Part shown: positions 52,272 through 53,912 of the stretch, piece after piece
Layout: the number at the start of each line of letters is the position of its first letter
Numbering within the stretch: position 1 is the stretch's first letter
Source of the DNA: Candidatus Siliceabacter maunaloa
Lineage (GTDB): Bacteria; Actinomycetota; Thermoleophilia; Solirubrobacterales; Solirubrobacteraceae
DNA length: 64,000 bases
Direction of reading: 5' to 3'
NCBI GenBank assembly: GCA_024330185.1
Contig: JANDLV010000015.1
Span: forward strand, 1-64,000
Notes under the pieces: generated by a model
Seen by the model: only the letters and a program-made list of their open reading frames with translations
Database searches by the model: none
What the model was told of the DNA's origin: nothing
Translations under genes and position numbers: made by a program

Positions 52272-53174
52272 ATGCAGGGATTGAAGAGGTTCGTGGCCGG
52301 TGGCCTGATCGCGATGGCGACGGTCGCCATCGCCCCCTCCGCGCTCGCTCAGGCGCAGGACCCCGGGCCGGGCGGCACGCTGAGCCTCAGCGAGACCGGC
52401 CGTGAGGCCGAGAGCCCGCGTCCCGGGGCGGACCCGCCTGTGGCCCGTGGGGCACAGGCACCCACCGAGCCACCCACGGTCGAGCTCACCGACGGCACGT
52501 TCACGGAGGACGATCCCGAAGTCACCCTCGAAGTCTCCAACTGCGCCTCGAATGTCGTCACCGCCGAGTCGCCCATCTTCGCCAGCTCCGCCTACGACCC
52601 GGACACGATGACTGTCACGGCCGACGTCGTGCAGGGGACCGAGAGCGGCACCTTTCCGCTCACGGTCACCTGCCAGGGCCAGCCCCCGGGGGTCGGCGAG
52701 CTCACGGTCAACGCGGGCTCGAGCGACGACGACGAGATCACCGCCCGCATCACCGACGGGACGTTCACCGACGAGGACCCGGAGATCCGCATCGAGGTCA
52801 CCGGCTGCGAGTCGGACGAGGTCACGGCTGAGTCGCCGATCTTCGCCAGCAGCTCCTTCGACGAGGAGACCGGCGTGATCACCGCGCGGATCGAGGAGGG
52901 GACCGAGAGCGGCACCTACGAGCTCACGGTCACCTGCGAGGGCCAGCCCACGCTGGAGGGGGAGATCGAGATCAGCGCCGGTGGCGCCGGCGGGGACGGC
53001 GACGGGGGGTCGACGCCCCGCGGCGGTGTCGACGCGGGCCACGGCGGGACCGCCGATGGTTCGCCGGCCGACGCCGACGGCTCGCCGCCCGCCGGCTGGC
53101 TGCTCCTCCCGCTGCTGGGCGCCACGGGCGCGGGGCTGATGGTCCTGCGCCGGCGGCACGGGACCGATCGCTGA
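52272..53174 (+). CDS. Secreted two-repeat protein with non-LPXTG sorting signal, probable class F sortase substrate
   Basis: A 300-residue protein. Residues 1-26 are a signal peptide. Two tandem repeats of about 79 residues (70-148 and 158-236) share TDGTFTxxDPE, AESPIFASS, GTESGT and LTVTCxGQP, each with two Cys. The C-terminus has TPRGGVDAG at 248-256, a polar spacer, a hydrophobic helix (WLLLPLLGATGAGLMVL) and the RRR charge stop. The PxGGVxxG motif in place of LPXTG is seen at the C-termini of other actinobacterial wall proteins. The facing gene, 39 bases away, encodes a class F sortase. A -10-like TAGGAT occurs at 52232-52237. Confidence 0.78.
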   Translation: MQGLKRFVAGGLIAMATVAIAPSALAQAQDPGPGGTLSLSETGREAESPRPGADPPVARGAQAPTEPPTVELTDGTFTEDDPEVTLEVSNCASNVVTAESPIFASSAYDPDTMTVTADVVQGTESGTFPLTVTCQGQPPGVGELTVNAGSSDDDEITARITDGTFTDEDPEIRIEVTGCESDEVTAESPIFASSSFDEETGVITARIEEGTESGTYELTVTCEGQPTLEGEIEISAGGAGGDGDGGSTPRGGVDAGHGGTADGSPADADGSPPAGWLLLPLLGATGAGLMVLRRRHGTDR

Positions 53175-53213
53175 CCGCCACCCCGGGCGGGCGACCGTCC
53201 CGGGCCGCGGGCC
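53175..53213. terminator. GC-rich hairpin between convergent sortase and substrate genes
   Basis: CCCGGG-c-GG pairs with CC-gt-CCCGG across a short GCGA loop in the 39-base gap, followed by a second GC-rich inverted repeat. Shared bidirectional terminator by position. Confidence 0.45.
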
Positions 53214-53912
53214 CTACTGCCTGCGCGCGAACACGATCAGGTTGTCGCGGTAGCTGCCGCTCGACTCGTCGAAGCTCCCCGTGCAGGTCACGAGCCGCAG
53301 CGTCGATCCGGGCGTCGGGCCATAGACCTCGCGCGTGGGGAAGCCGTCCTTGGGCACGTCCTTCAGACGGTCCACCACGAAGCGCACCGTCCGTCGCCCG
53401 CGGGGCGTGACCTCCACCACGTCGCCGGGCCCGAGCTCGCGGAGGCGGAAGAAGACGGCCGGACCGGTCGACGAGTCGACGTGGCCCGCGATCACCGCCG
53501 GGCCCTTCCGTCCGGGGAACTCGCCACCCGACCACCAGCCGGCCTCATCGGCCCGAGCGGGAACCTCGAGCCGCTCGTCGTCGGTGAGCCCGAGGCCGAT
53601 GACCGGTGCCTCCACGCCGATCGTGGGGATCCGGATGCGAAACAGGCCCTCCCCCTCGGCGGTCTGCTCGGACGCCAACCGAGTGCGCGGCTCCCGGCGC
53701 ACCGGCTCCCGGCGCACCGGCTCCCGGCGCGCCGGTTCCCGGCCATCTTCGGTGCCGGGCGACTCGACGCGGCTGCCGGTCGGCGCCTGCCGATCGACGG
53801 GGGCCGCTGCCCTGGGACCAGGCGCGGACGGCGCCAGTAGCCAGATCGCGCCGACCACCGAGGCGGCGATCAGCGCCACCAGGGCAACGACGGCAGGCCA
53901 CCTTCGCTTCAC
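53214..53912 (-). CDS. Class F sortase
   Basis: A 232-residue transpeptidase with one N-terminal membrane helix (9-26). A linker carries tandem Arg-Glu-Pro repeats (REPVRREPVRREP, encoded by a 15-bp tandem repeat), and the catalytic domain spans about 90-232. Catalytic residues are H144 (AGHVDSSTG), C210 (VTCTGSF) and R222 (SYRDNL). It attaches secreted proteins to the cell wall; the convergent two-repeat protein is the obvious substrate. Confidence 0.92.
   Translation of the reverse strand: MKRRWPAVVALVALIAASVVGAIWLLAPSAPGPRAAAPVDRQAPTGSRVESPGTEDGREPARREPVRREPVRREPRTRLASEQTAEGEGLFRIRIPTIGVEAPVIGLGLTDDERLEVPARADEAGWWSGGEFPGRKGPAVIAGHVDSSTGPAVFFRLRELGPGDVVEVTPRGRRTVRFVVDRLKDVPKDGFPTREVYGPTPGSTLRLVTCTGSFDESSGSYRDNLIVFARRQ

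Follow-up and report, generated by a model that had tools for sequence, protein, structure and literature searches.

A class F sortase facing a candidate substrate with a GVDTG-type sorting signal, and the distribution of such pairs across the phylum

Introduction

LPXTG is the textbook sortase tag. As far as their available text goes, papers from 2020 to 2026 either treat class F sortases as enzymes of unknown function or give LPXTG from one species only. In the open-access literature that we saw, a biochemical study of class F exists for one enzyme, SrtF of Cutibacterium acnes, which is reported to act on LPQTGE (PMC7451113) and, in the accessible parts of the reports that call it class F, is described as using LPXTG (PMC7451113, PMC13257024). 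This enzyme, which we liken by description and which lies outside our tree, shares its class with the sortase examined here but differs in its LPXTG signal; because it uses LPXTG, a GVDTG-type motif would not be universal for class F. SrtE1 of S. coelicolor resembles our pair in being an actinobacterial sortase with a non-LPXTG signal, but it belongs to another class (E), its LAXTG signal keeps leucine at P4, and no glycine-rich downstream part is described in the available portion of that report (PMC5148588).

Closer in gene arrangement, the class F genes of A. missouriensis SrtF1 (AMIS_11010) and SrtF4 (AMIS_36440) adjoin exported tail proteins that lack a standard pentapeptide, and the available text of this 2026 Actinoplanes study sets aside the neighbours of two class F sortases for want of a known pentapeptide (PMC13251363). 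Several Actinoplanes and Paractinoplanes neighbours in our own set carry VPLG[GS]VATGxGG; the A. missouriensis proteins are known to us by description.

Results

The window, that is, the whole stretch of 64,000 nucleotides that was analysed, contains a putative sortase substrate gene of 300 amino acids (52272..53174, + strand), recognised from its open reading frame, its translation and a match to the NCBIfam model GVDTG_CTERM (NF058571). It is followed by a class F sortase gene of 232 amino acids (53214..53912, - strand), with a GTG start and an N-terminal membrane anchor. According to the ORF list and the translations the two genes are convergent, with stop codons 39 bases apart, a gene order in agreement with the sequence-only reading that had placed both genes here, facing each other. 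The ORF 5' of the pair reads by eye as what we take to be an acyl-CoA ligase and the ORF 3' of it as, presumably, a thiolase; a functional link of either to the sortase pair is not evident. The G+C content of the region is about 73%, and our scan returned neither promoters nor terminators. Elsewhere in the window, a c-di-AMP riboswitch (RF00379; 25958-26122, + strand) scores 72.7 bits, the gathering score being 38.

The sortase reaches 170.2 bits with the NCBIfam class F model NF033748, over its cut-off of 166, which bears out the class first proposed for it, and 86.4 bits with PF04203. Compared with the members of NF033748 it is ordinary, being about 47-59% identical to the aligned relatives. 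In its AlphaFold model the domain is confident from about residue 90 onwards (domain pLDDT about 87-97), and the model has the beta-barrel fold of sortases, its Foldseek matches being sortases of classes A, C, D and E, with classes C and A at the top (best E 1.4e-10). A solved class F structure, sought by sequence, gave no match by single sequence and three weak matches by profile. The sister genome of the genus, which is 87% complete, gave no match to the window sortase.

The tree and the column counts were based on 152 of 156 class F domains, one domain with an internal stop and three short ones having been left out. The catalytic His144 (codon 53481..53483, - strand) and the nucleophile Cys210 (53283..53285, - strand) are present in 152/152 aligned domains. 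A full His-Cys-Arg triad had been read from the sequence, and its first two members hold while the arginine does not: Arg222 (53247-53249, - strand) corresponds to arginine in 51/152 domains, and the third active-site residue conserved across the class appears to be Asn224 (53241..53243, - strand), which lies near the usual Arg site and is asparagine in 145/152. A replacement of the catalytic arginine by asparagine in actinobacterial class F is reported in the available text of an earlier paper (PMC6998099). Class F-like domains of 98-121 bits also occur in relatives of the window genome (G039, G030, G003 and G081; loci L098-L101) within open frames of 636-1004 codons, with no motif tail within 1 kb; these may represent a fused form, or the frames may be too long.

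The facing protein has a predicted signal peptide at about residues 1-26 (52272..52349, + strand), recognised by eye in the translation from a KR start, a hydrophobic core and an ALA end, as had been claimed. Two Ig-like repeats follow, at residues 70-149 (Cys91 and Cys134; 52479..52718, + strand) and 158-237 (Cys179 and Cys222; 52743..52982, + strand), delimited by self-alignment and the AlphaFold model. The two repeats of the sequence-only reading stand, but its spacing of 79 residues was dropped, since self-alignment places the repeat starts at residues 70 and 158, with a period of 88, 47/88 identical positions and two cysteines per repeat; the similar core spans about 79-80 residues. The single-sequence AlphaFold model of the ectodomain is an all-beta tandem (mean pLDDT 79.3, pTM 0.45) that matches Ig-like and cadherin-like sandwiches, including domains of bacterial adhesins and S-layers (TM about 0.3-0.4, best Z 7.2). 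These matches to a modelled fold are generic, with modest scores, and name no function. A search among 299 genomes of the class found only the window protein itself, and a search of plasmids gave no match. Because the ectodomain is without relatives in these 299 genomes, the displayed part would be lineage-specific and the sorting tail general.

In the translation, the stretch TPRGGVDAGHGG starts at residue 248, so that TPRGGVDAG occupies residues 248-256; the C-terminal hydrophobic helix (residues 275-292; 53094..53147, + strand; translation and hydropathy filter) and the positively charged tail RRR (residues 293-295; 53148..53156, + strand) were likewise read as first described. Within this region lie the putative sorting signal PRGGVDAGHGG (residues 249-259; 53016..53048, + strand), with its conserved upstream proline, and the predicted pentapeptide GVDAG (residues 252-256; 53025-53039, + strand). 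No LPXTG occurs in the 300-residue translation, in line with the original description, and anchoring of the LPXTG type (TIGR01167) was rejected for want of the pentapeptide, the protein not being among the six TIGR01167 matches of its own genome.

The order of motif, helix and basic tail at the C-terminus of a putative exported protein fits the GVDTG sorting domain. Residues 248-295 match positions 1-44 of the 44 positions of NF058571 (GVDTG sorting domain), with a score that straddles the cut-off of 29: hmmscan on the complete protein gives 27.4, the search of the genome 31.8. The window tail thus matches the whole model while carrying GVDAG, with alanine instead of threonine. It is the sole match over the cut-off in its own genome; two weaker matches (C44 and C1) were considered as extra substrates and rejected, their tails being without the motif. 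Since NF058571 already models the tail, the motif type is known to NCBI curators, and the GVDTG family itself is not new. The name of the model is silent on a sortase partner, and the link to class F is supplied by the present analysis. Within the open-access literature, no paper containing GVDTG or its sister spellings deals with sortases, as judged by title or abstract.

We then examined DNA around 156 class F domains from 70 genomes. Candidate tails were open frames that begin in the manner of a signal peptide and carry, besides basic residues, a hydrophobic stretch at the C-terminus; no motif was used in the selection. Such a frame lies within 1 kb of 98 sortases; 54/152 sortases have no filter-passing tail protein within that distance, partly because contigs end. 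Applied to the 45 residues that precede the helix in the 98 neighbour tails, with the NCBI model unused, expectation-maximisation yielded GGVx[TA]GxGG. A motif score of at least 10 is reached by 71/98 neighbour tails, by 0/32 similar tails at distances above 3 kb and by 0.4% of shuffles; the window tail, itself among the 98, scores 15.4.

An independent set comprised 80 class F loci from named bacterial genomes, reduced to 75 by leaving out five that repeated earlier DNA. Under the same strict filters a qualifying tail lies within 1 kb at 59/75 loci and reaches the motif score at 50/75; the recurrence of such tails near class F genes of other genomes, which the sequence-only reading had proposed to look for, is a matter of observation in both sets. 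Among distant tails 1/7 reaches the score, and this one looks like a second substrate. A looser filter applied to 24 of the 25 strict failures (L326, with a strict score of 9.1, was left out) recovered motif tails in 18/24 and none in 6/24, a count that carries no shuffle control and includes L259, which has no convincing helix, and four tails 1.2-1.4 kb away. In Microbispora (L271, L280, L281, L282, L290 and L297) the tails, NPPIGGVAAGFGGAA, lie on the opposite strand and diverge from the class F gene; the pairing is the same, the gene arrangement different.

Proline stands two positions before the motif in 47/50 of the strict independent matches, although this column was unused in selection. 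The signal can therefore be extended to P-x-G-G-V-x-[T/A]-G-x-G-G. With regard to the proposal of PxGGV as the class F motif, its non-LPXTG character is upheld; PxGGV is only the upstream half of a signal that continues with x[TA]GxGG, and it is not class-wide. The signal of the window protein is probably better read as P-x-G-[GVDAG]-x-G-G, with GVDAG in the place of LPXTG. When the Thr-Gly cut of LPXTG serves as the point of alignment, which sets register and cut alike, the predicted scissile bond is Ala255-Gly256.

The downstream GxGG is conserved as much as the pentapeptide, and only one glycine follows the cut in LPXTG. It could be argued from this that the two genes are a true sortase-substrate pair in which cleavage falls inside the downstream glycine run, or in which the product is polymerised or released instead of being anchored to the wall. 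We regard this as unlikely, since the V-x-[TA]-G register equals P-x-T-G of characterised sortase signals, and the ORF list has no second pilin-like gene beside the pair.

In a phylum sample of 296 genomes, class F domains were taken at E <= 1e-25 and GVDTG tails at E <= 1e-4. Class F domains occupy 142 places in 58/296 genomes and GVDTG tails 46 places in 31/296. Genomic linkage is observed at two levels: class F is present in 31/31 GVDTG-bearing genomes (Fisher p 2.7e-26, uncorrected for relatedness), and 38/46 tails have a class F domain no more than 3 kb away. Of the eight tails without a class F domain at that distance, three are about 500 bases or less from a contig end. In one relative, a contig (G076 contig 69, 1-9494; L102) carries a pair of GVDTG tails separated by about 6 kb, and its 9.5 kb contain no match to a sortase; these two tails without a sortase nearby indicate that substrates can lie away from the sortase.

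Motif subtypes follow sortase clades. Sortase branches carry their own versions of the tail, namely PTRVDAGSAGL and PEGVPAGTAGL, SPVAPVxAGGGG, PNGGPPAGGGGL, PRGSVKTGVGG, VIGGVRGGLGGS and PSGAPDTGV. This clade-specific co-variation is also seen in genus g79, which we take to be Streptomyces, where each of seven sampled genomes has 4-7 class F genes. For 32 sortases of this genus, the nearest sortases in different genomes have a motif identity of 0.783, compared with 0.418 when paralogues are shuffled within genomes, and 0/2000 shuffles reach the observed value. Over 93 pairs the correlation between sortase and motif matrices is 0.563, with 0/999 permutations as high, a figure confounded by relatedness. 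The clade-variant part goes beyond the curated NCBIfam model: among ten variant tails hand-picked from the 98 neighbours and tested over their last 110 residues, 0/10 pass the NF058571 cut-off and 5/10 (L141, L216, L124, L199 and L203) give no match at E 0.1.

These distributions also bear on the identity of the anchoring enzyme. Besides the class F enzyme, the window genome encodes a class E-like sortase, on a different contig, so that the one-to-one pairing of the sequence-only reading holds for GVDTG tails, with one over the cut-off in the genome, but not for sortases. The available text on class E gives its signal as LAXTG, which likewise ends in xTG (PMC5148588), and one could suppose that the class E-like enzyme anchors the protein while the adjoining class F gene has some other function. 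This supposition is very unlikely: class E sortases occur in 175/296 genomes, yet it is class F that accompanies every GVDTG-bearing genome; by inspection, no class E sortase lies within 3 kb of any of the 46 GVDTG tails among the class E places listed; and motif type tracks the class F clade. As a separate observation, at two loci (L127 and L137) LARTG tails have a class F sortase at a distance of 1.8-1.9 kb and a class E sortase about 11 kb off; here two sorting systems adjoin.

Most unlikely of all is an ordinary tail-anchored membrane protein on which no sortase acts, its glycine-rich stretch being a linker that reflects the high G+C of the region, for although cleavage is only predicted, V, T/A, G, G and G are conserved phylum-wide, the shuffles and distant tails rarely or never reach the motif score, and the preceding proline recurs without having been selected.

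Discussion

Our results strongly support the view that the facing protein is a cognate class F substrate with a non-LPXTG motif, judged from its sequence and its setting, because co-occurrence, adjacency, blind motif discovery and independent loci all point in this direction. Narrowed to its core, the reading is of a genuine class F sortase beside a probably dedicated substrate with a GVDTG-type signal. What matters here is the phylum-wide, control-tested link of this signal to class F, the extended motif on both sides of the pentapeptide and the clade-specific variants.

We consider it quite likely that the two genes form a self-contained surface-display unit, in which the class F sortase would recognise its neighbour through PRGGVDAGHGG and attach it to the cell wall. 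In the mechanism that we infer, including its cleavage position, anchoring step, acceptor and the role of the asparagine in catalysis, the 300-residue protein would be exported and then retained in the membrane through the C-terminal helix and the RRR tail, where the neighbouring membrane-bound sortase would read the PRGGVDAGHGG signal. Cys210, together with His144 and Asn224, would attack the bond that follows Ala255 (GVDA|G, in the register of LPXT|G). A thioacyl intermediate would form, and the two-domain Ig-like protein would be passed to a cell-wall amine.

A broader proposal, which we put forward tentatively and hold at slightly short of even chances, is that actinobacterial class F enzymes are dedicated, mutually orthogonal sortases that read a long signal spanning the scissile bond (PxGGVx[TA]|GxGG). 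Paralogues in the same cell would use diverged versions of the signal, so that each anchors only the product of its adjoining gene, and the NCBIfam model would cover one part of this code.

With a signal found phylum-wide and ready-made pairs at hand, the specificity of class F sortases becomes directly testable. In addition, GVDTG-type pairs offer new candidates for ligating peptides by tags that are orthogonal to LPXTG.
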